Positions 8,149 through 29,100 of a stretch of 35,721 nt of DNA are shown here, piece by piece (the first letter of the stretch is position 1; the number at the start of each line of letters is the position of its first letter). Source of the stretch: Veillonellales bacterium (GTDB lineage: Bacteria; Bacillota; Negativicutes; JAAYSF01); contig JBDKTO010000096.1 in assembly GCA_039680175.1 (NCBI GenBank), forward strand, positions 1 through 35,721, given 5' to 3'. The notes under the pieces are model-generated. The model saw only the letters and a program-made list of their open reading frames with translations, searched no databases and was not told the origin of the DNA. Position numbers and translations under genes: made by a program.

Positions 8149-8188
8149 AATAAACCCGGATGGGGAATTTCCCATTCGGGTTTATTTT
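8147..8188. terminator. Bidirectional rho-independent terminator
   Basis: An 18-bp stem (8147-8164 with 8171-8188, one G-T wobble) and 6-base loop. An A-rich left flank and T-rich right flank give a T-tract on both strands. It serves the M20 peptidase gene (+) and the YtpB-like gene (-), whose stop codon lies inside it. Confidence 0.9.
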
Positions 8189-11042: not shown

Positions 11043-11078
11043 GTAATACAGACACCGCCTACTATGTTGTAATTAACC

Positions 11079-11117
11079 AAAGAGGTTCAAGAAGATAACC
11101 GCTTCTTGAACCTCTTT
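11079..11117. terminator. 16-bp hairpin in the leader of the sigma-54 regulator gene
   Basis: Bases 11079-11094 pair perfectly with 11102-11117 around a 7-base loop. It lies 37 bases upstream of the regulator's ATG, between divergent genes. Short A/T runs flank it, so it could terminate a leader transcript or be an attenuator. Confidence 0.5.
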
Positions 11118-11244
11118 GTCCATTACTTTAAATTAATGCAATTATAACATAGCAATAAGCAAATGTCTATGAATTAGCGAGTTTTAATTTGTAAAAATTA
11201 GAAAACAATGCTTTTATCAGGAGAAAGAAGGGCTAGCGGCAAAA

Positions 11245-11316: not shown

Positions 11317-11333
11317 TGGCACGGATATTGCAT
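11317..11333 (+). promoter_or_regulatory. Sigma-54 (-24/-12) promoter of the asd operon
   Basis: TGGCACG-N4-TTGCAT, an exact match to the RpoN consensus with the invariant GG (11318-11319) and GC (11330-11331) correctly spaced. Transcription is predicted to start near 11343, leaving a leader of about 70 bases before asd. Confidence 0.93.
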
Positions 11334-11414
11334 AATCAATAGATGAGTAAGCGGATTCAGTTTGGAAACGTTTACAAAATTCAGAGTACCATTACATAGG
11401 AGGTTAGTCGGAAA

Positions 11415-12440
11415 ATGAAAAAGTACAATGTTGCTATTCTAGGAGCAACCGGAGCTGTAGGAACGGAGCTGCTCCGCATCCTTGAATCACGGAAGTTTCC
11501 TTTCAATGAACTGAAATTGTTGGCGTTGGAAGTGGGTACGGTAATTCCGTTTATGGGGAAAAATTATACTGTGGAAGAAGCAAATGCCGAGGCTTTTAAG
11601 GGGATTGATATCGCACTGTTTGCCGGGGGGCCGATTAGTAAAGTTATGGCACCGGAGGCTGTAAAAGCCGGTGCGGTCGTAATCGACAACAGCAGCACTT
11701 TCCGTATGGATCCGCAGGTTCCGCTGGTTATTCCGGAAGTCAATCCGGAAGATTTGGATCGGCATCATGGCATTATTGCTAATCCTAATTGTTCCACCAT
11801 CATTATGGTTATGGCGCTGAATCCGATTCATCAGCAGGCACAATTGCGCCGGGTTGTTGCTTCCACTTGTCAGGCTGTATCGGGAGCAGGTAAGGCAGCA
11901 ATTGATGAATTGAATAACCAGGCCCGGGATATATTGGCAGGCAAAGAACCGCAAGCTTCTATTTTACCGGTCGGCAGTTTGGAAAAGCATTATCCTGTGG
12001 CTTTTAACATTATTCCGCAGATTGATGTTTTTCACGAAGACGGCTATACCAAAGAGGACATGAAGCTCGTAAATGAAACAAGAAAGATTATGCATTTGCC
12101 GGATCTGCGAATTACGGTAACGACTACGAGAGTGCCGGTGATCCGCAGCCATTCGGAATTCCTTAATATTGAAACGGAAAAGAAATTGACGGTTCCTGAA
12201 ACAAAAGAGATATTGGCGAAAGCACCGGGAGTAATTGTAAAAGATAATCCGGCTAAGCAGGAATATCCTATGCCCGCCTTTACTTCCGGACTGGACGAAG
12301 TTTTTGTCGGCAGAATCCGGGAAGACAATACGGTTCCGGCCGGCTTGAATCTCTGGGTAGTGGGCGATCAGATCCGTAAAGGCGCTGCCCTCAATGCGGT
12401 ACAGATTGCTGAAAAAATGATTGAAAGAAACCTCATTTAA
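11415..12440 (+). CDS. asd: Aspartate-semialdehyde dehydrogenase
   Basis: NADP-dependent enzyme interconverting L-aspartyl-4-phosphate and L-aspartate-4-semialdehyde; 341 residues, normal length. Seen: the nucleotide-binding GATGAVGTELLR at about 10-21, the catalytic Cys126 in IANPNCST, GAGKAAIDELNNQ, and the late RVPVIRSHSE block with the catalytic His. The Shine-Dalgarno AGGAGG is 10-15 bases before ATG 11415. It is the first gene of a 12-gene unit under a sigma-54 promoter, unusual for a biosynthetic asd. The reaction is reversible, so in this context it may oxidise the semialdehyde to aspartyl phosphate. Confidence 0.95.
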   Translation: MKKYNVAILGATGAVGTELLRILESRKFPFNELKLLALEVGTVIPFMGKNYTVEEANAEAFKGIDIALFAGGPISKVMAPEAVKAGAVVIDNSSTFRMDPQVPLVIPEVNPEDLDRHHGIIANPNCSTIIMVMALNPIHQQAQLRRVVASTCQAVSGAGKAAIDELNNQARDILAGKEPQASILPVGSLEKHYPVAFNIIPQIDVFHEDGYTKEDMKLVNETRKIMHLPDLRITVTTTRVPVIRSHSEFLNIETEKKLTVPETKEILAKAPGVIVKDNPAKQEYPMPAFTSGLDEVFVGRIREDNTVPAGLNLWVVGDQIRKGAALNAVQIAEKMIERNLI

Positions 12441-12472
12441 AGAAAGTAAAGAAAAGAAAGGAGGCTGGGTGA

Positions 12473-13681
12473 ATGAAACTGCTGGTTCAAAAATTTGGCG
12501 GAACTTCGGTTAGCACGCCTGAACGCAGGCAGCAAGCGGCGCAAAAAATACTGCAGGCGGTAAAAGACGGCTACAGCCCGGTTGTGGTGGTATCTGCGCC
12601 GGGAAGGATCGGCGAGCCCTATGCTACCGATACGTTAATACAAACAGCCAAACAGGAATGCCCGGCTATTGAGAAGCGGGAACTGGATATGATCATGTCC
12701 TGCGGCGAGATTATCGCCGGGGTGATTGTTACGGGAACGCTGAAAAATTCCGGACTGGATGCGGTGCTGCTAACCGGGCAGCAGGCTGGTATTATTACGA
12801 CCTGCCGTCATGGTAATGCGCAAATCCTTCATATCCGGCCGGATGCCATACTGAAACACGCGGCAGAAGGCAAGGTCGTGGTTGTAGCAGGTTTTCAGGG
12901 AATCAGCGAAGACGGCGATATCACAACGCTGGGCCGCGGCGGCAGCGATACGACGGCTGCTGCCATCGGGGCGGCGATTCAGGCCGCCGCAGTCGATATT
13001 TATACCGATGTGAACGGCATGATGACAGCCGATCCCCGGATCGTTTCCGATGCTCGTACTATTCCGGCAATCTCTTATGAAGCGGCCTATCAAATGGCGG
13101 TTCAGGGAGCTAAAGTGATTCATCCCCGGGCTGTCGAGATTTCCATGCGGTATAATATTCCCCTCAATGTAAAATGCACTTTTTCGGAGGAGGCAGGCAC
13201 AGCAATTTCCAATGATTCAGCCGGGATGATTGAGCGTCCGAAAAATTTTGCAACGATTGGCATTGCGCAGCAAAAAGGCTACGGCGTGTTAAAACTGCAT
13301 AATGGAGATGGGTTTAATCATGCCAATACCCAGGCTGTATTTAAGGAATTGGCAGCTACCGGCGGGGATAAGGACTTTATGGGCGTGACGGAAAATGATA
13401 TTGAGATCGTTGCCGAAGAACCAGTGATTGAAGCCATCGGGGAGATTTGCTCAACGGAAGGAATCGAAATTCAGGAAAAGAGAACAGGCTGTGTAAAGAT
13501 TTCTCTGATTGGGCGGTATGCATCGGATGATGCCGGCTTGTTCAGCACTTTCGTGGAAATGTTTTACCGCCATAACATTAAAGTGTTATGTACCTTTACC
13601 GGTACCTCTTCCATATCCGGCCTTGTAGAGACAGAAGCCATGGAGGCAGCGGTTCAGGCGATCCATCAGGATTTGTTTTAA
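12473..13681 (+). CDS. dapG: Aspartate kinase, DapG-like
   Basis: A 402-residue aspartokinase interconverting aspartate + ATP and aspartyl phosphate. Seen: KFGGTSV at 7-13, the DapG-type PYATDTLI and MSCGEII blocks, AGFQGISEDGDITTLGRGGSDTTAAA with the catalytic loop, and TDVNGMMTADPR. Two C-terminal ACT repeats (about 265-400) are present. The effector-binding turn, usually like GISVDFFNI in DapG proteins, reads GGDKDFMGV here, so feedback control may be altered. The order asd-dapG-dapA matches the end of the B. subtilis spoVF operon. It follows asd by 32 bases, with ribosome site AAAGGAGGC. Confidence 0.93.
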   Translation: MKLLVQKFGGTSVSTPERRQQAAQKILQAVKDGYSPVVVVSAPGRIGEPYATDTLIQTAKQECPAIEKRELDMIMSCGEIIAGVIVTGTLKNSGLDAVLLTGQQAGIITTCRHGNAQILHIRPDAILKHAAEGKVVVVAGFQGISEDGDITTLGRGGSDTTAAAIGAAIQAAAVDIYTDVNGMMTADPRIVSDARTIPAISYEAAYQMAVQGAKVIHPRAVEISMRYNIPLNVKCTFSEEAGTAISNDSAGMIERPKNFATIGIAQQKGYGVLKLHNGDGFNHANTQAVFKELAATGGDKDFMGVTENDIEIVAEEPVIEAIGEICSTEGIEIQEKRTGCVKISLIGRYASDDAGLFSTFVEMFYRHNIKVLCTFTGTSSISGLVETEAMEAAVQAIHQDLF

Positions 13682-13721
13682 AGGGGATTATTTCCCCAAT
13701 ATAGAATAGGGAGGAAGAAAG

Positions 13722-14612
13722 ATGAAATCATTTGGCAGAGTATTAACCGCAATGATTACACCGTTTCACGAGGATTTGACTGTTGACTACGAGGGAGCGG
13801 CTAATTTAGCCCGCTATTTGGTGGCCAACGGTTCAGACGGCCTGGTGGTGGCCGGCAGCACCGGTGAAGCGGCGACGCTGACGGAGGAGGAACGCTTGCA
13901 TCTCTTTTCCACCGTCCTGGATGCGGTAGGGGATCAGGCAGCTGTGATCGGCGGAACAGGGAACAATAATACAGCATCTACCGTTCAATTTTCCCGTAAG
14001 GCGGCAAAACTGGGGCTGCACGGTGTATTAGTGGCCGCGCCTTACTATAATAAGCCGACGCAGAAAGGAATATATCAGCATATTGCGGCAGTGGCCGATG
14101 CGGTGGATACGCCGATTGTAGTGTACAATATTCCGGGCAGAACAGGCGTCAACATTTTGCCGGAGACCGCATTGAAACTGGCTGCATTGCCGAATGTAAA
14201 GGCCATTAAGGAATCCAGCGGCAATTTAGAACAAATTGCTGCGATTATCCGGCAGAAACCGGCAGATGTGGCTGTCTATTCCGGTGATGATGCATTGACT
14301 TTGCCGATATTGTCTATTGGCGGTCAGGGAATTGTCAGCGTGGCGTCCCATATTGTGGGCAATGAAATCAAGGCAATGGTCGACGCTTATCAGGCAGGAC
14401 GGGTAGCGGAAGCCAGAGACATGCATTTGAAATTACTGCCAATATTTAAAGTTTTATTTATTACGACGAATCCAATTCCGGTAAAATCTGCCGTTAGCCT
14501 GCTTGGCTTATCTACCGATAAGTTGAGGCTGCCATTGACGACAGCAGAAGCGGACGAGGTCGCCAAGATTAGGCAAGCGATGCTGGAAGCTGGGTTAACG
14601 ATCAAGGGATAG
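13722..14612 (+). CDS. dapA: 4-hydroxy-tetrahydrodipicolinate synthase
   Basis: Class I aldolase condensing pyruvate with aspartate semialdehyde; 296 residues. The active-site set is complete: Schiff-base Lys163 in AIKESSGN, Tyr135 in YNIPGRTG, Arg140, Tyr109 in PYYNKP, and Ser46-Thr47 in GSTGE. This pattern is genuine DapA rather than a hydroxyproline-pathway deaminase of the same fold. The Shine-Dalgarno GGGAGGAAG precedes ATG 13722. Within this operon it could act in the retro-aldol direction, releasing pyruvate and aspartate semialdehyde. Confidence 0.94.
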   Translation: MKSFGRVLTAMITPFHEDLTVDYEGAANLARYLVANGSDGLVVAGSTGEAATLTEEERLHLFSTVLDAVGDQAAVIGGTGNNNTASTVQFSRKAAKLGLHGVLVAAPYYNKPTQKGIYQHIAAVADAVDTPIVVYNIPGRTGVNILPETALKLAALPNVKAIKESSGNLEQIAAIIRQKPADVAVYSGDDALTLPILSIGGQGIVSVASHIVGNEIKAMVDAYQAGRVAEARDMHLKLLPIFKVLFITTNPIPVKSAVSLLGLSTDKLRLPLTTAEADEVAKIRQAMLEAGLTIKG

Positions 14613-14626
14613 GGGAGGACATCACA

Positions 14627-15364
14627 TTGATCATTACAGGGGGAACAACAAACTATGGAGCGGAGATCGGGATTATTATGCTGGATACCATCTTTCCGCG
14701 TATTGTCGGCGATATTGGAAATGCCGGAACCTTTTCTTTTCCCGTGCGATATAAGACGGTTCACCGTGCTTTCCCTACTAAAGTAGTGCTGGAAAACGAT
14801 GCGGCTTTACTCAGTGGATTTATTGCGGCCGCTCGCGAACTGGAAGCTGAGGGAGTGAGGGCGCTCACTACAAGCTGCGGTTTTTTGGCTGTTTATCAGC
14901 AGGAATTAGCTGCTGCGGTATCAATACCGGTGTTTGCCTCCAGTTTGTTGCAGGTACCCCTGGTGGAAAGAATGATCGCTCCGAATCGAAAAGTTGTGAT
15001 TGTAACGGCTCACAAAGGGAAGCTGAGTTCCCGGCATTTGCTGGGAACAGGCATTACCGGGGAGCCGCCGGTTATTGTTGGTATGGAGGAAAAACCGGAA
15101 TTTTATCAAACCTTTGTTATGCAAAAAACGACCATGGATCTGGATAAGGTTAGGGAAGAAGTGGAAGAAACGGCTTGTAAAATTAAGGAAAATTATCGGG
15201 AAGCCGGGGCCATTGTCCTTGAGTGTACGAATTTACCACCCTTTAGATCTATTTTTCAGCAAGTTACCGGGTTGCCGGTGTTCGATATAACAACGCTTGT
15301 TAATTATATTCATCATAGCCTGAACTGGACCAGACAAGTGGATACCGGAAGAATGCATGTATAA
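14627..15364 (+). CDS. Asp/Glu/hydantoin racemase superfamily protein
   Basis: A 245-residue cofactor-independent racemase-like protein. The two cysteines expected as the acid/base pair are visible: Cys84 in TTSCGF and Cys200 in LECTNLPP. The N-terminal TGGTTNYGAEIGI and central TAHKGKL also fit the superfamily. The start is a TTG at 14627, 8 bases after AGGGGAGG; no ATG fits. It lies 14 bases after dapA, so translation is probably coupled. Substrate is unknown: it may racemise the imported amino acid, or an intermediate such as aspartate, or the family's AMDase/maleate-isomerase-type chemistry may apply. Confidence 0.8.
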   Translation: MIITGGTTNYGAEIGIIMLDTIFPRIVGDIGNAGTFSFPVRYKTVHRAFPTKVVLENDAALLSGFIAAARELEAEGVRALTTSCGFLAVYQQELAAAVSIPVFASSLLQVPLVERMIAPNRKVVIVTAHKGKLSSRHLLGTGITGEPPVIVGMEEKPEFYQTFVMQKTTMDLDKVREEVEETACKIKENYREAGAIVLECTNLPPFRSIFQQVTGLPVFDITTLVNYIHHSLNWTRQVDTGRMHV

Positions 15365-15410
15365 GAGACGGTTGCGGAGCATCAAATAAATAAACGGGAG
15401 ATGAGTCGAA

Positions 15411-16859
15411 GTGGAAATTACCGAAGTCGGGAAAATTGCATTATGGATATTGGCAATCTTAATTCCGATCCAGTTGATCATCGGTGCTGTGGTATCCCGA
15501 AAAAGCGGCCAGGATGCAAGCCACTATTTTATTAGCGGCAAACAACTTCCTTTCATTTTGGTTTTCTTTACTGATTTTGCCACTGTCATGGGAGTGGGAA
15601 ATTTTGTCGGATATGCCGGCAAAGGCTATGATATAGGGTTGAGTCAGCTGTGGATGATGGCCGGTGAGCAAGGCAGCAAGATCGTGTTTGCTTTGTGTCT
15701 GGCTGGAATTATCGGTCGTTATGCGTATACGACCATTAATGAATTTTTGGAAAAAGAACTGTTTCATGATAAATGGCTGAGAGCTATCGGTGGGATTTTG
15801 ATGACATTGCCGATGATCTGCTGGACAGGAGCTCAGGCTATCGGCATCGGCTTTATTTTGTCCGGCATTATGGGAGTGGATCCTACTACCGGTATTTGGA
15901 TTGCTGCTTTGACGGCGATTCTGTATACTGTTATGGGCGGCATGTGGGCCATTGCCTGGACCGATGTGGTGCAGGGAGTTATCCGGGTCATTGTCGGCTT
16001 CGTCTTTTTCGGAGTTGTCTATGCCGGGGTTCATGGTTTCGGCGGAATCGCGAATGCTGTTGCGGCAAGCGCTAAACCGGAGATGCTTGAAGTCAATGGT
16101 ATTGGGTTTTGGGCAGCCGTTGCTTTATTCTTAACTCCGGTGTGCGGACAGTTTACCGACCAGGCTTGGTGGCAGCGCTGTTATGCGGCAAAAGACAGCA
16201 AAACTGCCAGAAACGGATTTTTAACGACAGCAGTAATGGCAGTCATTATGTGCTCGGCCAGTATCATGGTCGGTATGGCCGCCTATACATTAAATCCGGA
16301 TCTCCCCAAAGCGGATATGGCCTTTTCCTGGCTTATGGCTAATTATATGAATCCGTGGCTGTCGGCGCTGCTGGTGGTTACGATTATCGGTGCTGATATG
16401 ACTGTATCTGCCGGGCGGCTGAATTCCGGCGTTACGTTATTGATCATGGATGTTATCAAACCATTGATTGCTCCCCATATGGCTGATAAAAAATTGGTCG
16501 ATATGGGAAGATGGCTGACATTGGTTTTGGGTATTTTTGCTGTGGCTGTTGCCCTGGCTTTTCCGTCCGTCCTTTCAGCTGCTTTATTTGGTTACGCGGT
16601 TACAGGCGGCGGTTTATTCATCCCGCTTATCTTAGGGCTGGCCTGGAAGGATCAGAATGGCAAAACGTATGTTACTAAAAACGCGGTTATGTGGTCGCTG
16701 ATTATTGCCGGTGGTACTGCGGCTGTTATTCAGTACATGCCTGCCAACGCCACGATATTCCGCGGCGGGATTGTACCTGGGGTTTTGATTTCCCTGGTAT
16801 TAACGGTTGGTATCAGCTTGTTTGAAAGACAGTCGCAAAAGACTACTATAAGCGGTTAA
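15411..16859 (+). CDS. Sodium:solute symporter family transporter (SSS)
   Basis: A 482-residue membrane protein with about 13 hydrophobic helices. It has SSS hallmarks: a SGKQLPF-type loop after the first helix, FATVMGVGNFVGYAGKGYD in the second, and MGGMWAIAWTDVVQG in the middle. The family uses the Na+ gradient to import proline, pantothenate, sugars or carboxylates. Start is GTG 15411 behind GGGAGATGAG. Its position in a sigma-54 operon between a racemase-like gene and a dehydrogenase suggests that it imports the pathway's substrate, which sequence alone does not reveal. Confidence 0.92.
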   Translation: MEITEVGKIALWILAILIPIQLIIGAVVSRKSGQDASHYFISGKQLPFILVFFTDFATVMGVGNFVGYAGKGYDIGLSQLWMMAGEQGSKIVFALCLAGIIGRYAYTTINEFLEKELFHDKWLRAIGGILMTLPMICWTGAQAIGIGFILSGIMGVDPTTGIWIAALTAILYTVMGGMWAIAWTDVVQGVIRVIVGFVFFGVVYAGVHGFGGIANAVAASAKPEMLEVNGIGFWAAVALFLTPVCGQFTDQAWWQRCYAAKDSKTARNGFLTTAVMAVIMCSASIMVGMAAYTLNPDLPKADMAFSWLMANYMNPWLSALLVVTIIGADMTVSAGRLNSGVTLLIMDVIKPLIAPHMADKKLVDMGRWLTLVLGIFAVAVALAFPSVLSAALFGYAVTGGGLFIPLILGLAWKDQNGKTYVTKNAVMWSLIIAGGTAAVIQYMPANATIFRGGIVPGVLISLVLTVGISLFERQSQKTTISG

Positions 16860-16881
16860 GACAGTTTGCTGGGGCAGGGAA

Positions 16882-16897
16882 GCAGGTAACTACCTGC
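16882..16897 (+). other. Intra-operon hairpin between symporter and dehydrogenase genes
   Basis: GCAGGTA (16882-16888) pairs with TACCTGC (16891-16897), extended by flanking CAGG/CCTG with a bulge. There is no T-tract, so it looks like an mRNA stability or processing element rather than a terminator. Confidence 0.4.
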
Positions 16898-16947
16898 CCT
16901 GGTAATCCAATGATTCTTGGCGGAGAAATCATGGGAGGAGGAATAAC

Positions 16948-17274
16948 ATGGAGATTGTAAAACACCCGGTATTGGGAGAAATGCCGAAAGTAAAGACGGT
17001 CACGATTTATTTCGAAGGTACTCCGATCGTTGCCCGGGAAGGACAAACCGTAGCTTCGGCCCTTATGTCAAACGGGATTTATAAATTGGGCCATAGCCGG
17101 AATTCGTCACAGGCCAGAGGTTTGTATTGCGGCAGCGGGCGCTGTCAGAGCTGCTTAATGAGTATTAATGGTGTGGATCATGTGAGAAGCTGCAAGACGT
17201 TGGTTAGAGAAGGAATGGTCGTTAAACAATGTACCGGTGATCCGGATGTCAGGAGAGATCGTCATGAAGACTGA
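16948..17274 (+). CDS. (2Fe-2S) ferredoxin-like subunit of flavin dehydrogenase
   Basis: A 108-residue plant-type 2Fe-2S protein of the Fer2_4 / HcnA-like kind. Four cluster cysteines are visible at 61, 66, 69 and 82 (CGSGRCQSC then SCK). It matches the small gamma subunit of hydrogen cyanide synthase, opine oxidase and dye-linked proline/hydroxyproline dehydrogenases. GGAGGAGG precedes ATG 16948. It overlaps the next gene by 11 bases, so the two are translationally coupled and probably form one complex. Confidence 0.88.
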   Translation: MEIVKHPVLGEMPKVKTVTIYFEGTPIVAREGQTVASALMSNGIYKLGHSRNSSQARGLYCGSGRCQSCLMSINGVDHVRSCKTLVREGMVVKQCTGDPDVRRDRHED

Positions 17275-18337
17275 TGTTCTAATTGTAGGCGGAGGCCCCT
17301 CCGGGTTAGCCGCAGCGTATGAAGTAGTTTCGCGGGGCTATAAGGCGACGATTGTAGATGAAGCCTGGAGCCTTGGCGGGCAATTGCGGCAGCAGACTCA
17401 GTTTCTGATGTCCCTGCCGGCGCCATGGGCGGGGCTGCGCGGATTTCAAGTCGCAGACCGGCTGACTAAACGGTTACAGAAGTACCTAGTAGAGTATTTG
17501 TTGAATCATGAAGTGATTGGCCTTTATGCGGATGGCAGTGTGGGAGTCAGCAGCGGGGAAAAAATAATGAAAATTGAACCTGCCTGCACCGTTGTCGCCA
17601 CAGGGGCTGCAGAGTCGGCAGTGACATTTCCCGGCTGGACGCTGCCAGGGGTGATGACAGTTGGCGCGGCTCAAATTTTGATTAACCGGGAGCGGGTTTA
17701 TCCGGGCAAAACAGCGCTGGTCGTTGGATCCAGCGATATGGCTTTGGAAATTACCCGGCAAATGCATGATGTCGGTATTCATATAATGGGAGTTGCTGAA
17801 TCGGCCGATAAACTTTTGGCTAAAGATCAGCGGATCATTGATTCTTTTGAAAAAACAGGCATTCCTATTTTTTTACAGACTGATGTGACAGCAGCCACAG
17901 GAAGCGGCAAAGTGGAAGAAGTTCAGTTGCATTCCCGCCGGAATTCCTCAGATGAAGCAATGAAGTATTCGGTGGATTTCCTTTGCGTCGATGGCGGACG
18001 GCACCCTATTCTTGAACTGTTCTCGATCCTGAACTGCCCCTTCCAATATCAGCAAGCGCTTGGCGGGTGGGTTCCCAGTTACAGTGATACATTGCAGGCA
18101 GCGGCTGACGGGGTTTTTGCGGCCGGTCAAGCGGCAGGAGTTACCTGCCAGGCCGGAGTTCTTTTAACCGGGGCAATTGCGGGAATCGGCGCTGTGGATT
18201 ATCTGGAGAAGAAAACAACAGAAGAACGGGAAACAGCCCGCCAAAATTACTGGGAGCAGCTTCAAAAAATTGAATCTTGCCAGTTGCCTGAAGTTTGGCA
18301 GGCACGGTTGACTCATATCAAAAACTATCCGGGTTAA
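17264..18337 (+). CDS. FAD-dependent oxidoreductase subunit (HcnB/OoxA-like, alpha)
   Basis: A 357-residue pyridine-nucleotide-disulphide-oxidoreductase-type flavoprotein. The FAD motif GGGPSGLAAAYE lies at about 8-19, followed by ATGA and the C-terminal FAAGQAAGV, which binds the flavin. The second dinucleotide fold reads LVVGSSDMALE, lacking the usual GxGxxG, so NAD(P)H is unlikely to be a substrate. The start at ATG 17264 is preferred because AGGAGAG is 6 bases upstream; ATG 17246 is possible. In related complexes this subunit shuttles electrons between the 2Fe-2S proteins and the catalytic DAO subunit. OoxA-type homologues carry the BFD domain at the C-terminus; here it is a separate gene. 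Confidence 0.87.
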   Translation: MKTDVLIVGGGPSGLAAAYEVVSRGYKATIVDEAWSLGGQLRQQTQFLMSLPAPWAGLRGFQVADRLTKRLQKYLVEYLLNHEVIGLYADGSVGVSSGEKIMKIEPACTVVATGAAESAVTFPGWTLPGVMTVGAAQILINRERVYPGKTALVVGSSDMALEITRQMHDVGIHIMGVAESADKLLAKDQRIIDSFEKTGIPIFLQTDVTAATGSGKVEEVQLHSRRNSSDEAMKYSVDFLCVDGGRHPILELFSILNCPFQYQQALGGWVPSYSDTLQAAADGVFAAGQAAGVTCQAGVLLTGAIAGIGAVDYLEKKTTEERETARQNYWEQLQKIESCQLPEVWQARLTHIKNYPG

Positions 18338-18383
18338 CAGCAGGATGAACCGGTGAGCTTTAGCAAGAAGGGGAGGACGTAAA

Positions 18384-18713
18384 TTGGATAAGTCGACAAT
18401 AGTCTGCCGTTGTGAAGAGATTACGGTTGGCGATGTTGAAAATGCAATCGCCCAGGGAGCGGAAACCTTTGATGATGTCAAAAGGCTGACGCGGGGTGGT
18501 ATGGGACTTTGTCAGGGGAAAACATGCCGGACGGTCATTTCGGAACTGATTGCCCAACTTAAGGGAGAATCTGTAGCCGCTGTTCCTGTTCCCCGGCTCA
18601 GAATGCCGCTTAGACCAATTCCTATGGAAATTTTAGCGGCAAATCAATCCGGAACTTCGGCAATGTTTGACCTTTTGGATCAGGCAAGCCGGAAGGAAAG
18701 GCAGGAGAAGTAG
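18384..18713 (+). CDS. BFD-like [2Fe-2S]-binding subunit
   Basis: A 109-residue protein with a bacterioferritin-associated-ferredoxin-like domain. Cys8 and Cys10 (VCRCEE) and Cys43 and Cys48 (GLCQGKTC) give the CxC-x32-CxxxxC cluster site. The tail (about 65-109) is proline-rich and may dock to the partner flavoprotein. TTG 18384 is the start, 6-8 bases after GGGGAGGA. In opine oxidase and proline dehydrogenase complexes this domain is fused to the alpha flavoprotein, so this operon has a split version. Confidence 0.87.
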   Translation: MDKSTIVCRCEEITVGDVENAIAQGAETFDDVKRLTRGGMGLCQGKTCRTVISELIAQLKGESVAAVPVPRLRMPLRPIPMEILAANQSGTSAMFDLLDQASRKERQEK

Positions 18714-18714
18714 A

Positions 18715-19788
18715 TTGTCCAGGGAATATGATACAATTATTATCGGCGGCGGCATTATCGGCAATGGAATTGCCTATCATCTGTCGGAGGTTCAGTCGGA
18801 CGGGATTTTAGTGCTGGATAAAAATTATCCTTTAAGCGGCACATCCGGATCCACTCAGGCGTGGATTTGGATCCATAGCAAGAGTCCCTCCTGGTATGCG
18901 GAATTTTCCTTGTACAGTGCGGAATTGTATGGGTATTTGCAGCGAAAAATCGGTGATATTGAATTTGATCGTGCCGGCGGCATTTCTCCCTTTTTTACGG
19001 AAACCGAAAGAGAGCAGGCGTTTAAATTAGCGGAATGCCAAGCTGAAGTGGGAATTGAGATTCAGGTTTTAAATCGGGAAGACGCTTTGGCCCGGGAGCC
19101 GGCTTTATCCCCTAAAATTCTCGGAGCGATGTACAGCCCGGCAGACGGCAATGTGAATCCGATGCGGTTGGTAGAGCAGTATATGCGGGCTTCGAAAAAA
19201 AACGGGGTTACTTTTGAGTACTATAATCCGGTGACAGGCATTGAAAAGCAACAGGGTTCATTTATTGTAACAACAGCAAAAACGGTATTTCGCTGCAAGA
19301 AATTAATTCTCAGCGCCGGCATTTGGACCAGGGAACTGGGCAAGCTGTTGGGAATTGATGTCCCGGTTAAACCGGTGCGGGGACAGATTATTATCACAGA
19401 ACCGTTGGCGCCTTTGATGAAACATACTTTATCGATTATGCGGCAGACCAGTAACGGTGAAGTTTTAGTCGGCAATTCCCAGGAAAATGCCGGGATTGAT
19501 CGACGGTCTACACTGGATGTCATGATTGAAACTGCCAATATGGCTGTTAAGTATGTACCGGATTTGGCAAAGGCCAAAGTTGTTCGCGGATTTTCCGGCC
19601 TGAGGGTAATGCCGGAGGATGAGTTCCCGATTTTTGGCGTGGTTCCCGGAATTGAGAATCTGTATGTTGCGGCGCTGCATAGCGGGATCACATTATCACC
19701 GCTGATTGGTACTTTAATGACCGAGCTAATCACCGGGGGTGAGACTTCCGTTCCCATTGACCGGTTTAGCATTACACGGTTTGCTTGA
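18715..19788 (+). CDS. DAO-family FAD-dependent amino/imino acid dehydrogenase (beta, catalytic)
   Basis: A 357-residue D-amino-acid-oxidase/glycine-oxidase-fold flavoprotein. The FAD motif IIIGGGIIGNGIAYHL is at about 8-23. The middle has GGISPFFTETE, then AGIWTRELGK and KPVRGQIIITEP. The C-terminal FSGLRVMPEDEFPIFG and HSGITLSPLIG complete the fold. It should oxidise a C-N bond of an amino or imino acid (compare HcnC, OoxB and proline/hydroxyproline dehydrogenase beta). The start is TTG 18715, only one base after the preceding stop and 7 bases after AGGAGA; a more upstream frame start would overlap the BFD gene by 47 bases. Electrons would pass to the 2Fe-2S/FAD subunits and then probably to Etf. 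Confidence 0.88.
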   Translation: MSREYDTIIIGGGIIGNGIAYHLSEVQSDGILVLDKNYPLSGTSGSTQAWIWIHSKSPSWYAEFSLYSAELYGYLQRKIGDIEFDRAGGISPFFTETEREQAFKLAECQAEVGIEIQVLNREDALAREPALSPKILGAMYSPADGNVNPMRLVEQYMRASKKNGVTFEYYNPVTGIEKQQGSFIVTTAKTVFRCKKLILSAGIWTRELGKLLGIDVPVKPVRGQIIITEPLAPLMKHTLSIMRQTSNGEVLVGNSQENAGIDRRSTLDVMIETANMAVKYVPDLAKAKVVRGFSGLRVMPEDEFPIFGVVPGIENLYVAALHSGITLSPLIGTLMTELITGGETSVPIDRFSITRFA

Positions 19789-19806
19789 AGATAGGGGGAT
19801 AAAGAC

Positions 19807-20580
19807 ATGCATATTATTGTATACATAAAACAAACTTTCGATACCGAGGCGCAAATTGCCGTCGACAGTAATGGGAAAATTGACAGTAACGGAGTTCATT
19901 TTGTCGTAAACCCTTACGATGAATATGCTATCGAAGAGGGGGTACGGCTGAAAGAAAAGTTTGGCGGTGATGTTACCGTTATCACCATGGGCGGCAACCG
20001 GGCTCAGGACGCTTTGCGCACGGCATTGGCCATGGGGGCGGATAAGGCGGTTTTAATTGACGATTCCGCCTTGGAAAAAACCGATGAATGGGTTACGGCC
20101 AACGTACTTACCCAAGCAGTTGCTTCTTTGCCGTATGATGTAATTTTTACCGGGCGCATGGCGATTGATGACGGTTCCGGTCAGGTTGGCGTCCGTGTGG
20201 CGGAAAATTTGCACATCCCTTCCGTAACAAATGCAGTCAAAATTGAAATCAACGAAAAATCCGCGGTAGTCACGCAGGAAATTGACGGCGGCACCGCTAG
20301 TTTGGAAGTTTCTTTACCAGCCGTATTTACAGCGCAGAAAGGATTAAATGATCCCCGCTATCCTTCTGTGGCTGGCATGATGAAAGCAAAACGGAAAGAA
20401 TTGAAAAAAATCAGCCTTACCGATCTGGGGCTTGAAAAGGAAAAGCTGGTCGCTAAAATGACAGTGGGAAAATATGCCGTATCGGCGGCCCGGCAAGCAG
20501 GTAAAAAACTGCAGGGAAGTTCTGCCCAGCAAGTTGCTGAATTAGTGAATCTATTAAAGACAGAAGTTAAGGCTTTTTAA
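19807..20580 (+). CDS. etfB: Electron transfer flavoprotein beta subunit
   Basis: A 257-residue EtfB, normal length. Seen: the N-terminal HIIVYIKQTFDTE strand, NPYDEYAIEEGVRLKE, ALAMGADKAVLI, and the AMP/FAD-binding GRMAIDDGSGQVGVRVAENL in the middle. With EtfA it forms the one-electron carrier taking electrons from flavin dehydrogenases. GGGGGATAAAG precedes ATG 19807. It lies 18 bases after the DAO gene and 17 before etfA. The sequence gives no clear sign of the bifurcating type. Confidence 0.95.
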   Translation: MHIIVYIKQTFDTEAQIAVDSNGKIDSNGVHFVVNPYDEYAIEEGVRLKEKFGGDVTVITMGGNRAQDALRTALAMGADKAVLIDDSALEKTDEWVTANVLTQAVASLPYDVIFTGRMAIDDGSGQVGVRVAENLHIPSVTNAVKIEINEKSAVVTQEIDGGTASLEVSLPAVFTAQKGLNDPRYPSVAGMMKAKRKELKKISLTDLGLEKEKLVAKMTVGKYAVSAARQAGKKLQGSSAQQVAELVNLLKTEVKAF

Positions 20581-20597
20581 AGAGAGGAGCATTGGAA

Positions 20598-21584
20598 ATG
20601 GCCAAGGGAATATGGATTATCATCGAACATAATCAAGGAAAAATTCGTAAAGTCTCTTTGGAACTGTTAAGTCAGGCCAGGAAAATGGCCGCTCAGTCAG
20701 GAGAAGCTTTGACTGCTGTTGTGCTGGGGGAAAATGTCCAGAAACTTGTTTCTGAGATTTCCGCTTACGGCGCAGATAAAATTATTTTAGCAGAAGAACC
20801 ACGGTTGGCAGAGTATACAACCGGAGCTTATACTTCGGTTCTCAACAAAATGATCCGTCAGGAAGAGCCGCGGGCTGTTCTCTTCGGGCATACAGGTATG
20901 AGCCGTGATTTAGCGCCTCGTCTGGCACAGCGCCTTGGCGTGGGTGTTGCCTCCGACTGTATTGGTATGGAATTGGCTGAGAAAACCTTCCTGCAATTTA
21001 AACGTCCTGTTTACGCCGGTAAAGCTTTTGCTGCTGTTGCGGCCGAAAACTGTCCGGTTATGGCAACCATTCGACCGAATACATTTGCAGTTGCGGAGCC
21101 CGATTCCAGTTTACAGGCGGAAGTAGCAGCATATTCTGTGGAAATCGATCCGCAGGATATTTGGAGTGTTATCAAGGATGTAGCGGTCGCGGTTTCGAAA
21201 CGTCCGGAATTGACCGATGCGAATATTATTGTATCCGGCGGGCGGGGAATGCAGGGACCGGAGAATTTTGCCCTGCTTGAAGCATTGGCTGATACGATGG
21301 GGGCGGCGGTAGGCGCATCCCGTGTGGCTGTGGATGCCGGCTGGCTGGACCACGAATTTCAGGTCGGGCAGACAGGAAAAACGGTTTCACCGACTCTTTA
21401 TATTGCCTGTGGAATTTCAGGCGCAATTCAACATTTGGCCGGCATGAATTCTTCCCGCTATATTGTTGCGATCAATAAAGATCCGGAGGCAAATATCTTT
21501 AATGTAGCTGATTATGGAATTGTCGGCGACTTATTTGAAATTGTACCGTTGCTGACGCAGGAAATAAAAGCAGCTGTAAAATAA
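20598..21584 (+). CDS. etfA: Electron transfer flavoprotein alpha subunit
   Basis: A 328-residue EtfA. The C-terminal FAD-binding region is intact: VGASRVAVDAGWL, QVGQTGKTVSP, YIACGISGAIQHLAGM, and AINKDPEANIFNVADYGIVGD. The start at ATG 20598 is 8 bases after AGAGGAG; an in-frame TTG at 20592 is too close to it. In clostridia lacking SpoVF, an EtfA has been implicated in dipicolinate formation, which is relevant because this operon also holds asd-dapG-dapA. The immediate neighbour is an ETF:quinone-type oxidoreductase, favouring a respiratory role. Confidence 0.95.
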   Translation: MAKGIWIIIEHNQGKIRKVSLELLSQARKMAAQSGEALTAVVLGENVQKLVSEISAYGADKIILAEEPRLAEYTTGAYTSVLNKMIRQEEPRAVLFGHTGMSRDLAPRLAQRLGVGVASDCIGMELAEKTFLQFKRPVYAGKAFAAVAAENCPVMATIRPNTFAVAEPDSSLQAEVAAYSVEIDPQDIWSVIKDVAVAVSKRPELTDANIIVSGGRGMQGPENFALLEALADTMGAAVGASRVAVDAGWLDHEFQVGQTGKTVSPTLYIACGISGAIQHLAGMNSSRYIVAINKDPEANIFNVADYGIVGDLFEIVPLLTQEIKAAVK

Positions 21585-21596
21585 GGAGAGAGAAAA

Positions 21597-23621
21597 ATGG
21601 CAACCCGGCAGATTTACTGGAATATCGAAGGACATTTTCTGCTCTACCTGTTTTTATTGATTGCTGTCGGATTTTTCGCATACGGTGTTTATCGGCGGGT
21701 AAAGCTGTGGCAAATGGGGCAGCCGGAAAATCGCTGGCAGAATGTTTGGCAGGGAATTCAGGATGTTTTGCTTTACGGATTTTTCCACAAACGAATTATG
21801 AAAGAAAAGTATCCTGGGAGTATGCACCTGTTTATTTTCTGGGGATTTGTCTTCCTGGCTTTTGCCACCGCTGTTGTGGCAGTGCATACTGATTTGGGAG
21901 TTCCCATTTATCAGGGAGGACTTTACTTATTTGTGAAATGTACCGCCAATTTCTTTGGCTTATTAGCAGTGTGCGGCATTTTAATGGCCGCCTGGCGGCG
22001 TTACGTAATCCGACCGAGACGTCTGGATAATAAACCGGAAGATGGAATTACTCTGGCGCTGATCTTTTTGATTTTGCTGACCGGGTTCTTACTGGAATCG
22101 GCTCGTATAGCTGCTACCGCTGATCCTTGGGCCGATTGGGCTTTTGTCGGGAAATGGTTGTCTGCACCATTGACAGGCCTTGATGCAGCCGCTTTGCTGA
22201 CACTGCATCGTTGCCTTTGGTGGTTTCATATGCTTCTGGTTATGTCGTTTATCGCGTATTTTCCTTATTCAAAACTGTTTCATATTATTTTGGCGCCGCT
22301 TAATCAATTTTTCCGTTACCGGGGTCCTGTCGGAGTGCCGGCAGCAATTGATTTTGAGGATGAAAGCTTGGAATCCTATGGCAAGGATGAATTGCAGCAG
22401 TTTTCCTGGAAAACATTGTTTAACAGTGACGTTTGTCTGCGGTGCGGTCGTTGTCAGGAATTTTGTCCCGCGTTTTTAAGCGGCAAGCATTTAAATCCGA
22501 AAGCAGTGATTCAGGCTATCAAGGTGCATATGGAGGAAATCGGCAGGGCGTCGGCACAGCAGCAGACGGACCCGTCGTCAGAGGCGGAAACTGCTGCAGC
22601 CGGCTCTTCCCCGGTGCGCTCATTGATTGGTGAAGTTATTCCGGAAGAGGATATTTGGGCATGTACTACGTGCCATTCCTGCGAACAGCAATGCCCGGTG
22701 TTTGTTGAGCATGTAGGAAAAACGATTGAGCTGCGCCGCCATCTGGTGCTTATGGAAAGTCGTTTTCCGGCGGAAGCCCAGGCAGCCTTTCGCAATATGG
22801 AAAATAACGGTAACCCATGGGGCATCTGCTGGAGCACACGGGATCAATTTCTTAAAAGCTTAGGGGTGCCGACGTATGAAGAGAATCCGGCGGCGGATGT
22901 TTTGTATTGGCCGGGGTGCTCCGGTGCTTTTGACTGCCGAAATCAAAAGGTATCTAAGGCAGTTGTGCATTTATTACAGGCGGCAGGAGTCAATTTTGCT
23001 GTTTTGGGCAATGAAGAAAAGTGCTGCGGTGATTCAGCCCGCCGCTTGGGCAATGAGTATCTGTTTTACTCTCTGGCAAGTGAAAATATTGAGGCGATGA
23101 AGCGCTACGGCGTGAAGACAATCGTGACCCAGTGTCCCCATTGCTTTAATATTCTGAAGAACGAATATCCCCAGCTTGGCGGTCACTTTACCGTATTCCA
23201 CCATACAGAATTTCTTTTGCAGCTGGTCAAGTCAGGTCAGTTGACTTTGCAGAAAAAGTCCGGGCAAAGTATTGCCTATCATGATTCCTGCTATTTAGGG
23301 CGATATAATCAAATTTATCAGCCGCCGCGGGAATTGCTGACAGCAGCAGGGCTGGAAGTCAGAGAAATGTCTCATGCTTTTGAGAAAAGTTTTTGCTGCG
23401 GCGCCGGCGGCGGCAGAATGTGGCTGGAGGAAAAAGAAGGAGACCGAATCAATGTGATGCGCGCCCAGGAGGCTTTAGCTACCAATCCGGATCTGGTAGG
23501 AACCGCCTGCCCGTTCTGTCTGTCGATGCTGGATGAGGCGGTAACAACTGTTGCCGGCGATGAGAAGAGAAAAACGATGGATATTGCGGAAATACTGGAG
23601 CAGCATTTATCCCAAGAATGA
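21597..23621 (+). CDS. Membrane (Fe-S) oxidoreductase, EMO-type ETF:menaquinone oxidoreductase
   Basis: A 674-residue fusion. Residues 1-240 are a NarI-like membrane domain with about six helices and candidate heme histidines (MHLFIF at about 77, TLHRCLWWFH at 204 and 211, KLFHI at 229). Next are two 4Fe-4S motifs: Cys280-283-286-290 and Cys356-359-362-366. Two CCG domains follow (KCCGDSARRLG, FCCGAGGGRMW) like HdrD/GlpC/LldE. This architecture is the ETF:menaquinone oxidoreductase (EMO) group found beside etfBA in anaerobes. It would accept electrons from Etf and reduce menaquinone. The low-complexity Ala/Gln stretch between the two cluster motifs (about 318-340) is a linker. It ends the operon. 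Confidence 0.9.
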   Translation: MATRQIYWNIEGHFLLYLFLLIAVGFFAYGVYRRVKLWQMGQPENRWQNVWQGIQDVLLYGFFHKRIMKEKYPGSMHLFIFWGFVFLAFATAVVAVHTDLGVPIYQGGLYLFVKCTANFFGLLAVCGILMAAWRRYVIRPRRLDNKPEDGITLALIFLILLTGFLLESARIAATADPWADWAFVGKWLSAPLTGLDAAALLTLHRCLWWFHMLLVMSFIAYFPYSKLFHIILAPLNQFFRYRGPVGVPAAIDFEDESLESYGKDELQQFSWKTLFNSDVCLRCGRCQEFCPAFLSGKHLNPKAVIQAIKVHMEEIGRASAQQQTDPSSEAETAAAGSSPVRSLIGEVIPEEDIWACTTCHSCEQQCPVFVEHVGKTIELRRHLVLMESRFPAEAQAAFRNMENNGNPWGICWSTRDQFLKSLGVPTYEENPAADVLYWPGCSGAFDCRNQKVSKAVVHLLQAAGVNFAVLGNEEKCCGDSARRLGNEYLFYSLASENIEAMKRYGVKTIVTQCPHCFNILKNEYPQLGGHFTVFHHTEFLLQLVKSGQLTLQKKSGQSIAYHDSCYLGRYNQIYQPPRELLTAAGLEVREMSHAFEKSFCCGAGGGRMWLEEKEGDRINVMRAQEALATNPDLVGTACPFCLSMLDEAVTTVAGDEKRKTMDIAEILEQHLSQE

Positions 23622-23771: not shown

Positions 23772-25760
23772 ATGCTTAAATTCCATAATTTGAGGAATAA
23801 ATTGTCAATTTACATATTGATTCCTGTTTTAGTTGGAATCGCCATTTTAATTTCAGTTTCTTATTATACTGCCTGGAATACCTTGAATCGCCAGGTTAAC
23901 AGTACGCTGCAGTTTATGACCCAGGCCTATAACGGCCAAATCGTCAGCTGGTTTGCTGAAAAAGAAGCGGTAGTAACGAACATTGCTGAAATATTATCCA
24001 GCAAGGACATGTCGGAAGAGGAGCAAATTCATTTATTGGCTACATTGAAGCAGACAATGCCGGAAGTCAGCAATATTTATGTAGGGTATGCGGACAAGCG
24101 GGATTACAATGCGATTCCAACAGTATTGCCACCGGGATTTGATCCCACCAGCCGGCCCTGGTATAAAAAGGCAGTCGCTGCTCAGGGAAAGATTGCCTAT
24201 TCTGATTTTTACCTGAACACGAATAAGGAACCACGGGTTAGTATCGTAAAAGCGATGCAGGCCAATGGCCAGACTATTGGTGTGGTAGCGGCCGATATTA
24301 GCTTGGATCATCTGCGGGGAGTGGTGCAGGGAATCAAGGTCGGCGATACCGGATACGCGTTTTTAATGGAGCATACCGGTGCTTTTCTTTATCATCCGTC
24401 CTTTAATATGACGGATAATATCGGGAAAGTAGAACCCGGTTCATTTCCTCAGGACAAGGAATGGTATCTGAATGGGGAGCAGGGTATTGCCACGGGCAGT
24501 GTGGGAGGCAAAGAAATTGTCAGTGCAAAAATTCCGGTAGGGAAAACCGGCTGGACTCTTGTGGCCAATGCGCCGGTAGAGGAATTGTTTGCCGGAGTGA
24601 CTGCTTTACGGACAAGATTACTGATTGGCGGCTTGATTTTAATTTTGTTGGTAGCCTTTGTAGTGTTTTATGTTGCCCGGGGAACGGTTCAACCGCTGAC
24701 ACGTTTGGCGGGAATGGCTGACGAGATAGCAAGAGGCAATCTTACCGGTTCCAGGGAACTTAATTATCATTCTCAGGATGAAATAGGAAAATTGGCTGCC
24801 AGCTTTGCGACGATGGCTGGTAATCTGCGAAGTATAACGCTTGGAGTGTCGGAATCGGCAGCTCAGGTGGCAGCTGCGTCGGAACAACTCAGTGCCAGTG
24901 CGGAACAGTCGGCCCAGGCAGCCAATCAGGTTGCGGTAAGCATTACTGAAGTGGCTCAGGGAACGGAAAATCAGGCGAAAGCCACGGTCAATACGACGGC
25001 GACTATTGAAAAAATGTCTGCCGGCGTGCAGCAGGCGTCCGCCAATGCCAATAATGTAGCCTCAGTGGCCGATCAAACTTCCCAAGCGGCGAATGACGGC
25101 AGTCAAGCGATTGGCAAGGCTGTCAGCCAGATGAAAACCATTGAGGAATCTTTTCAATTTATTACCGACGCTGTAAATCGTTTAAACCAGCGGTCCCAGG
25201 AAATTGAAAAATTTGTAGAGGCGATTTCCGGCATTGCCGGTCAAACTAATCTGCTTGCCCTGAATGCCGCCATTGAAGCTGCCCGCGCCGGTGAGCAGGG
25301 AAAAGGGTTTGCTGTTGTGGCTGAAGAAGTGCGAAAATTAGCGGAGCAGTCGCAGCAAGCGGCAAAACAGATTGCTGTTTTGATTCATGATACAGCGGAT
25401 GATACCGAAAAAGCCGTGCTCGCCACAAACAGCGGTTCGGAGGAAGTAAAGACAGGAACGGAAGTAGTGAATAAGGCAGGCCGTGTATTTAGCGAAATAC
25501 AGCGGCTGGTAAATGAAGTCACTGCCCAAATTGAGCAAATATCCGCAACCATACAGCAGCTTGCCGACAACAGTCAGGAGATTGTTTCCTCGGTTGAATC
25601 CATTGATACCATTACCAAGGAAACAGCAGCGCATACCCAGACCGTATCGGCAGCGACAGAAGAGGAGTCGGCGTCCATGGAGGAAATTGCTGCCTCCAGT
25701 CAGAAACTCTCTGCTTTAGCACAGAAACTGCAAGACGCTATTAATAAATTTAAGGTGTAA
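23772..25760 (+). CDS. Methyl-accepting chemotaxis protein with amino-acid-type dCache sensor
   Basis: A 662-residue chemoreceptor. TM1 is at about 11-32 and the periplasmic dCache at about 35-275. TM2 is at about 279-300, followed by HAMP and a full signalling domain whose hairpin tip reads [38 protein letters not shown] (given as separate short blocks in the protein, about residues 493-530). The sensor shows R128, W130, Y131, Y143, D145 and D175, matching the dCache_1AA amino-acid-binding signature as I recall it, with Phe123 at the usual Tyr position. AGGAGGTC precedes ATG 23772. It lies 150 bases after the sigma-54 operon on the same strand, so it may sense that pathway's substrate. Confidence 0.93.
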
Positions 25761-27398: not shown

Positions 27399-27542
27399 CA
27401 GACACCTGCCTTTCTTTTCACTTTCTTATTCGCTGTTTTTAAAGAAATCCTTTTTCAACGACAAAAATTTACAAAATGTTAATATATCGGCAGGGGGATT
27501 TTTATCTTCCGGCAACGAAAGTTTCCCTGAGAGGTGGGATGT

Positions 27543-29096: not shown

Positions 29097-29100
29097 GAGT

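Follow-up and report, generated by a model that had tools for sequence, protein, structure and literature searches.

The stretch of DNA studied here, hereafter the window, is one whole contig (JBDKTO010000096.1, C96 in our numbering; 35,721 bases) of a Veillonellales bacterium whose genome comprises 4.08 Mb in 121 contigs. We found in it a 12-gene operon in which second copies of asd, an aspartokinase gene (ask), and dapA, which encode three enzymes of the aspartate/diaminopimelate pathway, are joined under a sigma-54 promoter to genes for a racemase-family protein, an importer, and a flavin dehydrogenase. We give a probability of roughly 0.44 to the reading that the operon serves the sigma-54-controlled catabolism of one imported amino acid, most likely an isomer of diaminopimelate or a close relative, with DapA, Asd, and the kinase working in reverse. 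If this reading is correct, it would be a new use of the textbook biosynthetic aspartokinase, Asd, and DapA, and would provide a route from the signature amino acid of peptidoglycan to aspartate, pyruvate, and ATP. Automatic pipelines would probably annotate the operon as one for lysine synthesis.

The operon occupies positions 11415-23621 of the plus strand, from asd through the gene for a membrane FeS protein, and its genes are separated by gaps of 11-88 nt or, in two cases, overlap. The order is asd, ask, dapA, an Asp/Glu-type racemase gene, a Na+ symporter gene, four genes for a flavin/2Fe-2S dehydrogenase, the genes for EtfB and EtfA, and the gene for the membrane FeS protein (Table 1). 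A first-pass annotation of the window had described one perfect -24/-12 promoter, 12 tightly spaced genes on the same strand, and a divergent sigma-54 activator, and this description was confirmed by a pattern scan and by the open reading frames (ORFs), whose families were assigned by Pfam and NCBIfam searches. The genes that it had listed were also found, but the PRK07475 Asp/Glu-racemase-family gene between dapA and the transporter gene is not named in its title.

That these might be the only copies of asd, ask, and dapA (the trio) in the genome, a possibility raised in the same annotation, is excluded. Contig C1 carries dapB, asd, ask, and dapA in a row as a second, housekeeping set, to which the operon proteins are 65% (Asd), 61% (DapA), and 45% (kinase) identical. 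The C1 aspartokinase passes the DapG-type (PRK08210) cut-off with 554 bits against 474, and a third aspartokinase gene of this genome lies on contig C67. At 26 further kinase loci of the class (L036-L061, the highest-scoring of a larger number of hits), a match to asd was found in the 1.5-kb flanks in every case and a match to dapA also in 24; therefore, asd-ask-dapA is the usual order in the class. The trio of the operon is this block without dapB, and the earlier remark that a DapB-like step is missing from the operon was correct (an operon elsewhere, in genome G735, carries a second dapB; see below). Compared with the biosynthetic dapB-asd-dapG-dapA cluster of the class, the window matches in the three enzymes and their order, whereas it lacks dapB, has a kinase with a diverged ACT region, is under sigma-54 control, and is joined to an operon for uptake and oxidation.

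The same kind of operon was found by a kinase search of 379 genomes of the class, 129 of which had a match at 1e-60. A second kinase that is 54-55% identical to the window kinase over its length is present in G308, G312, and G309, which belong to one genus of another family; the other full-length matches were at most 48% identical. Partial matches in G022 (56%) and G024 (52%), covering the kinase part only, were set aside, since their identities are like those of housekeeping kinase parts (57-61%). The three related loci (L062-L064) have the order divergent activator, asd, ask, dapA, racemase, SSS symporter, Fer2, FAD, 4Fe-4S protein (as read in L062), BFD, and DAO. Their proteins are 54-59% (activator), 72-74% (Asd), 54-55% (kinase), 59-61% (DapA), and 58-60% (racemase) identical to those of the window; their SSS, Fer2, FAD, BFD, and DAO proteins are only 28-46% identical, that is, of the same kind and not orthologous. 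A five-gene unit of activator, asd, ask, dapA, and racemase adjoins two different uptake-and-oxidation modules of one kind. We reject the explanation that these genes are chance neighbours, since three further genomes carry the unit, each time behind the same promoter.

In maximum-likelihood trees, a single branch separated the four trio copies from the other rows; its support was 100/100 for asd, 100/100 for ask, and 99/95 for dapA. The trees were midpoint-rooted and contained 30 (asd), 30 (ask), and 28 (dapA) rows, of which 26, 26, and 24 were housekeeping copies; for asd, the bootstrap had not yet converged. Rows removed beforehand were L036, whose genes are those of L065, L050, which is close to L044, and the C67 kinase. 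Within the genus of the relatives, nonsynonymous divergence of the trio (dN 0.025-0.078) was compared with synonymous divergence (dS 0.22-0.41), and these estimates show purifying selection on the trio in the three relatives.

When the window was scanned with the pattern TGGCAYRN4TTGCW, TGGCACGGATATTGCA at 11317-11332 was the only sigma-54 site with zero mismatches in 35.7 kb; sites with two or fewer mismatches numbered 18, compared with 20.2 expected by chance. A 15-nt core of the promoter, TGGCACGGATATTGC, is identical just upstream of asd in L062, L063, and L064, and thus in all four trio operons. In the alignment of the intergenic regions, it forms a fully conserved run of 15 columns, and no other such run exceeds 4. 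A chance match at this position is therefore unlikely, as judged from this conservation. The best NCBIfam match of the divergent activator is PrdR, with 424 bits, below the cut-off of 795. Its PAS domain is 70-72% and its AAA+ domain 73-74% identical to those of the three related operons, compared with 34-50% for the PAS domains of seven other activators (C41, L022, L103, L096, L105, L107, and L100); across all ten, conservation is poor over the first 109 residues. The conservation of the PAS domain makes it likely that the same inducer or signal acts in both lineages, although the dehydrogenase differs. Between the activator gene and asd, the window also contains a perfect 17-bp inverted repeat with a 7-nt loop (11078-11118), which is absent from the intergenic sequences of L062-L064 in the alignment.

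The enzymes of the trio keep their catalytic motifs. Asd and DapA score above their equivalog cut-offs and keep the catalytic motifs NPNC, STCQAVSG, and RVPVIRSH (Asd) and the active-site motifs GSTGE, YYNKP, YNIPGRT, and IKESSG (DapA). The remaining protein of the trio had been labelled DapG; it is an aspartokinase that keeps the motifs of the kinase domain, but it is diverged and scores below the cut-off for the DapG type. Its kinase part is 57% and its ACT part 28% identical to those of the housekeeping copy in the same genome, and, in comparison with two other operon copies, the kinase part is 66-67% and the ACT part only 33-37% identical. Over five comparisons with the window kinase, the ACT part was 21-37% identical; in three pairs of housekeeping kinases, it was 50-65% identical, and the kinase part 66-76%. 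The DSH motif of ACT2 is absent from all four operon kinases and present in all four housekeeping copies checked. The simplest reading of the diverged ACT region is that feedback control of the operon kinase has been lost or changed.

DapA, Asd, and aspartokinase interconvert exactly 4-hydroxy-tetrahydrodipicolinate (HTPA) and pyruvate plus aspartate (with ATP). In the reading that we favour, the PrdR-like activator would sense the substrate or its product, and the SSS symporter would import a diaminopimelate-type amino acid, for example, from peptidoglycan. The racemase would supply the enantiomer that the DAO subunit oxidises; in proline reduction, a racemase acts before the main enzyme. From the DAO subunit, electrons would travel by way of both 2Fe-2S subunits and FAD to Etf, reaching menaquinone through the membrane FeS protein. 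The oxidised product would reach the level of dihydrodipicolinate/HTPA, and DapA would cleave the ring product to pyruvate and aspartate semialdehyde. Asd, with phosphate and NADP+, would turn the semialdehyde into aspartyl phosphate, from which the aspartokinase, freed of feedback control, would yield aspartate and ATP. Given the importer, racemase, and amine-oxidising complex that accompany the trio, the parsimonious catabolic scheme starts from a diaminopimelate-type amino acid, one amino centre of which would be oxidised, and continues through this sequence. The complete form of this scheme, in which diaminopimelate of the cell wall or a hydroxylated relative is oxidised via Etf and menaquinone, DapA acts as a retro-aldolase, and ATP is gained through a feedback-free aspartokinase, is proposed tentatively. 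The catabolic interpretation of the first-pass annotation is partly supported: the trio is a second copy, it has its own sigma-54 promoter and activator, and it shares an operon with genes for an importer and an amino/imino-acid dehydrogenase. Also in favour are the recurrence of this arrangement in three other genomes, the conserved PAS domain of the activator, and the second dapB of G735. The substrate, the inducer, the stereochemistry, the direction, the gain of ATP, the electron route, and the loss of feedback control remain proposals.

The closest known systems are heteromeric flavin amino-acid/opine dehydrogenases, namely, D-hydroxyproline dehydrogenase, OdhABC, HcnABC (HCN synthase), and archaeal L-proline dehydrogenase. 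According to the accessible part of PMC4575208, these have in common with the window a DAO-type FAD beta subunit, an FAD-bearing alpha subunit, both 2Fe-2S motifs, and a transporter gene in the operon. Of the two motifs, one is in the Fer2 protein and one in the BFD protein; the Fer2 spacing of the window, C-X4-C-X2-C-X12-C, is as described there, and the middle spacing of the BFD protein (X32) is longer than the 15-20 given in the same part of that paper. The window differs in that alpha is split into separate ORFs for the FAD (17237-18337) and BFD (18384-18713) parts, in that EtfBA and the membrane FeS protein adjoin, and in that DapA, Asd, and the kinase are in the operon. The beta subunit contains the Gly-X-Gly-X2-Gly of the DAO superfamily as GGGIIG. 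It also differs in having no Arg-X-Trp FMN motif; among eight DAO proteins scanned, only one from Oceanisphaera has R-X-W anywhere. Unrelated beta subunits in this dehydrogenase family can share one substrate (PMC4575208, accessible part).

A reconstruction of sigma-54 regulons in Clostridiales lists PrdR and other activators for amino-acid fermentation (PMC6615313, in part). The window resembles the PrdR-type regulons in the family of the activator, the -24/-12 promoter, and an amino-acid catabolic operon, as far as these are described in the available sections of that paper, whereas its activator is far below the PrdR cut-off, its chemistry would be oxidative and not reductive, and genes for proline reductase are absent. 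Neither 'lysine' nor 'dap' occurs in the main text of PMC6615313, according to a word search. In marine Pseudomonadota, diaminopimelate is catabolised via LysA, by decarboxylation to lysine (PMC9602339, in part). The nutrient would be the same, whereas Pfam searches with the 12 operon proteins gave no decarboxylase family. Our literature search, in which coverage of subscription papers was largely missing, found no description of this gene set.

Racemase-dehydrogenase operons elsewhere show in which company the non-trio part can occur. The racemase profile had matches at 30 places in 24 of 398 genomes of the phylum, our own genome included. We examined 20 stretches, corresponding to 21 of the 29 other places; the eight places left out were low-scoring, and L107, L108, L112, and L113 are among the stretches that are short or cut by contig ends. 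An FAD-DAO dehydrogenase of the relatives' kind was found in 12 of the 20 stretches (DAO 39-56% identical to that of the relatives) and a match to a sigma-54 activator in seven. In L103 (genome G735), a divergent activator gene stands next to an operon with the order permease-DAO-BFD-Fer2-FAD-Fd-racemase-dapB, upstream of which there is a sigma-54-like site with one mismatch. The encoded DapB (200 bits; cut-off, 122) keeps the catalytic motif EKHHNQKVDAPSGTA and is a second copy, the other being on C58; G735 was the only one of ten genomes searched with two copies above the cut-off. By these matches, a gene of this pathway has been duplicated in a separate lineage and, in a single case, joined to a racemase-dehydrogenase operon.

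The racemase family probably serves several amino acids, and the partner enzymes may hint at which one; in the window, the partners are DapA, Asd, and aspartokinase. G735 has four PRK07475-type racemase genes in different contexts (L103, L104, L105, and L109), and at L104 a serine-dehydratase-like gene, under the cut-off, lies beside the racemase gene in a stretch with no dehydrogenase. L111 encodes a DapA-like protein (15981-16949) near two racemase genes; it passes the dapA cut-off and has YNLPAHTG instead of YN.PGRTG, and is probably not a DapA, judging from this motif. A neighbour gene of a racemase locus on a Rhizobium plasmid is annotated as DUF108, a family that we take to include aspartate dehydrogenases. 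On a plasmid of Oceanisphaera (L025), genes for an SSS symporter, a DAO protein, and a PRK07475-like racemase face an operon that encodes RidA, a TRAP transporter, and a dehydrogenase like HcnABC; dddP and phosphonate genes are nearby.

Several observations weigh against the diaminopimelate scheme. Its weak point is thermodynamic. Oxidation of plain diaminopimelate gives tetrahydrodipicolinate, so one more oxidation is needed, and the step from tetrahydrodipicolinate to dihydrodipicolinate, to which no operon gene is assigned, is steeply uphill with NADP+ and perhaps near level with menaquinone. Because of this, either the flavin/Etf/menaquinone branch must perform this step too, or a hydroxylated diaminopimelate must be the substrate. 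The Etf and membrane protein of the window would fit a high-potential electron sink, and a hydroxylated diaminopimelate would avoid the extra oxidation; we know of no abundant source of the latter. The direction in which DapA, Asd, and the kinase work is not readable from sequence.

Nor do the structure predictions for the racemase and the DAO subunit name a substrate. Cys84 and Cys200 of the racemase are invariant in five aligned proteins, and its predicted fold (mean predicted local distance difference test score, pLDDT, 84.5) resembles those of racemases for allantoin, hydantoin, aspartate, and glutamate, with a best structural match of Z 16.3 over 207 residues and a root-mean-square deviation of 2.9. 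The modelled fold fixes the superfamily and not the substrate, the allantoin/hydantoin and the aspartate/glutamate racemases being matched about equally. The model of the DAO subunit failed (mean pLDDT 31), so that no substrate can be read from it; the best solved chains for this subunit are glycine oxidase and dimethylglycine dehydrogenase.

The linkage evidence also has another side. None of the 20 racemase stretches had a match to asd or the kinase; the racemase-dehydrogenase core is not diaminopimelate-specific, because 12 of the stretches contain the dehydrogenase, none contains asd or kinase, and the neighbours differ. One neighbour, in L102, is alanine-dehydrogenase-like (under the cut-off), with similar frames in L099 and L106 by their translations. 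The dapB linkage occurs in one stretch of 20, and the PAS domain of the L103 activator is only 36% identical to that of the window. In our own genome, contig C41 carries orthologous SSS, BFD, and DAO genes without the trio, and L022, a contig of a metagenome-assembled genome and the single locus obtained from a genome-contig scan with the DAO protein, carries an orthologous dehydrogenase (67-72%) and a 46% identical racemase without it. No match to Etf was found in the three other 20-kb loci (L062-L064). The relatives' genus comprises five genomes, and the remaining two, G310 and G311, have one kinase match each and no second kinase. Our genome and the three relatives each have one dapB above the cut-off, which in our genome is the one on C1.

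The main rival of the catabolic reading keeps the trio in the forward direction. An imported amino acid (such as lysine, diaminopimelate, or an analogue) would shut off the housekeeping kinase and pathway, and the uninhibited trio of the operon would allow aspartate-family amino acids and the cell wall to be made while the dehydrogenase oxidises the imported compound. The strongly diverged ACT part and the lost DSH motif favour this explanation, all three reactions would run in the usual direction, and sigma-54 control fits. Nevertheless, it calls for no more than the kinase and possibly DapA, whereas the trio also includes asd and the G735 operon includes dapB, and neither Asd nor DapB is, to our knowledge, a feedback-controlled step. 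We consider this explanation unlikely, though it deserves to be taken seriously.

A further alternative is that the enzymes of the trio now serve other substrates and act on the product of another amino acid, with an acyl-phosphate giving ATP, in the manner of the hydroxyproline route, in which a DapA-family enzyme acts on pyrroline carboxylate. L029 (Chelatococcus) has an annotated dapA and an aldehyde dehydrogenase gene beside a related trimeric dehydrogenase, possibly for hydroxyproline, and the dehydrogenase family includes D-hydroxyproline dehydrogenase (PMC4575208, accessible part). However, YNIPGRT, YYNKP, and IKESSG are all present in the operon DapA, which shares about 60% identity with housekeeping DapA, the DapA-like proteins of L029 and L111 are without the YN.PGRT motif that it keeps, and the operon Asd and kinase keep their catalytic motifs. 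With this motif present, and with Pfam searches of the 12 operon proteins giving neither a proline-racemase-family epimerase nor a semialdehyde dehydrogenase of the aldehyde dehydrogenase family, the hydroxyproline version was not retained as a leading explanation, and recruitment to other substrates in general seems rather improbable.

Two explanations invoke dipicolinate. In the first, the trio would make HTPA for spores, and the flavin complex with Etf would oxidise dihydrodipicolinate to dipicolinate in place of DpaAB. The genome has no DpaA above the cut-off (two weak matches were found), and asd-dapG-dapA stands after dpaAB in Bacillus subtilis. EtfA has been reported as dipicolinate synthase in Clostridium perfringens (PMC5104732 and PMC3533761, each in part). 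But a sigma-54 promoter, a PrdR-like activator, an importer, and a racemase fit spore formation poorly, Etf is unmatched in the three related loci, L022 has the same dehydrogenase without the trio, and asd-ask-dapA is already the housekeeping order in the class; we regard this explanation as very improbable. In the second, least probable of all, dipicolinate or another pyridine/piperidine dicarboxylate would be imported and reduced by the flavin complex before DapA cleavage, with the same logic for DapA, Asd, and the kinase (a dipicolinate-fermenting coculture was reportedly described in the older literature), but the racemase and the amine-oxidising DAO-type subunit would be left without a role, and the DAO/racemase core occurs without the trio.

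Table 1. Features of the operon and its surroundings in the window
Feature	Position	Strand	Basis
PrdR-like sigma-54 activator, divergent	9354..11042	-	N-terminal domain, PAS, AAA+, helix-turn-helix; Pfam Sigma54_activat 1.1e-72, PAS
Sigma-54 (-24/-12) promoter TGGCACGGATATTGCA	11317..11332	+	0 mismatches
asd, aspartate-semialdehyde dehydrogenase	11415..12440	+	PRK14874 463 bits, cut-off 223
Aspartokinase, DapG type, diverged ACT region	12473..13681	+	AA_kinase; PRK08210 439 bits, cut-off 474
dapA, 4-hydroxy-tetrahydrodipicolinate synthase	13722..14612	+	TIGR00674 344 bits, cut-off 206
Pyridoxal-phosphate-independent Asp/Glu-racemase-family protein (PRK07475)	14627..15364	+	PRK07475 290 bits, cut-off 231
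Sodium:solute symporter (SSS family), importer	15411..16859	+	PF00474 2.3e-34
Gamma-type 2Fe-2S subunit of dehydrogenase	16948..17274	+	Fer2_4; C-X4-C-X2-C-X12-C
Alpha-type FAD subunit (HcnB/SoxA-like)	17237..18337	+	Pyr_redox_2; soxA-type 120 bits, far below cut-off
BFD-like 2Fe-2S subunit, split from alpha	18384..18713	+	Fer2_BFD, SO_alpha_A3; C-X-C-X32-C-X4-C
Beta-type catalytic DAO-family FAD subunit	18667..19788	+	DAO (PF01266) 2.7e-66
EtfB	19807..20580	+	PF01012 2.4e-48
EtfA	20592..21584	+	PF00766, PF01012
Membrane FeS protein: NarI-like membrane part, 4Fe-4S part, two CCG domains	21597..23621	+	Nitrate_red_gam, Fer4, CCG x2
Methyl-accepting chemoreceptor-like gene	23772..25760	+	ORF and translation, judged by eye

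Some details of the operon genes should be added. The alpha-type FAD subunit may alternatively start at the ATG at 17264, and the start of the beta-type DAO subunit is uncertain, the N-terminus of the relatives being nine residues shorter in the alignment. The membrane FeS protein is presumed to be an Etf:menaquinone reductase. Searches with the DAO subunit at 1e-80 and 1e-70 found only our own genome among 380 genomes of the class and 398 of the phylum; the related operons were missed because their DAO differs (31% identical).

The second SSS/BFD/DAO set of this genome, on contig C41 (L018, 3861-11501), is 69-75% identical to that of the window. It is accompanied by a separate PrdR-like activator, a sigma-54 site without mismatches, an aminotransferase, and a 2-hydroxyacid dehydrogenase. 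No match to a Fer2 or FAD subunit was found in this 20-kb stretch, and the C41 set may borrow these subunits from the window operon.

The chemoreceptor-like gene starts 150 nt downstream of the gene for the membrane FeS protein, and its membership in the operon is uncertain. Beside the activator gene, on the minus strand at 8187-9260, there is a gene for a DUF2600 protein with a nearly full-length Pfam match. In the region 25878-31194, a gene for polyphosphate kinase comes after two genes of the Ppx/GppA family.

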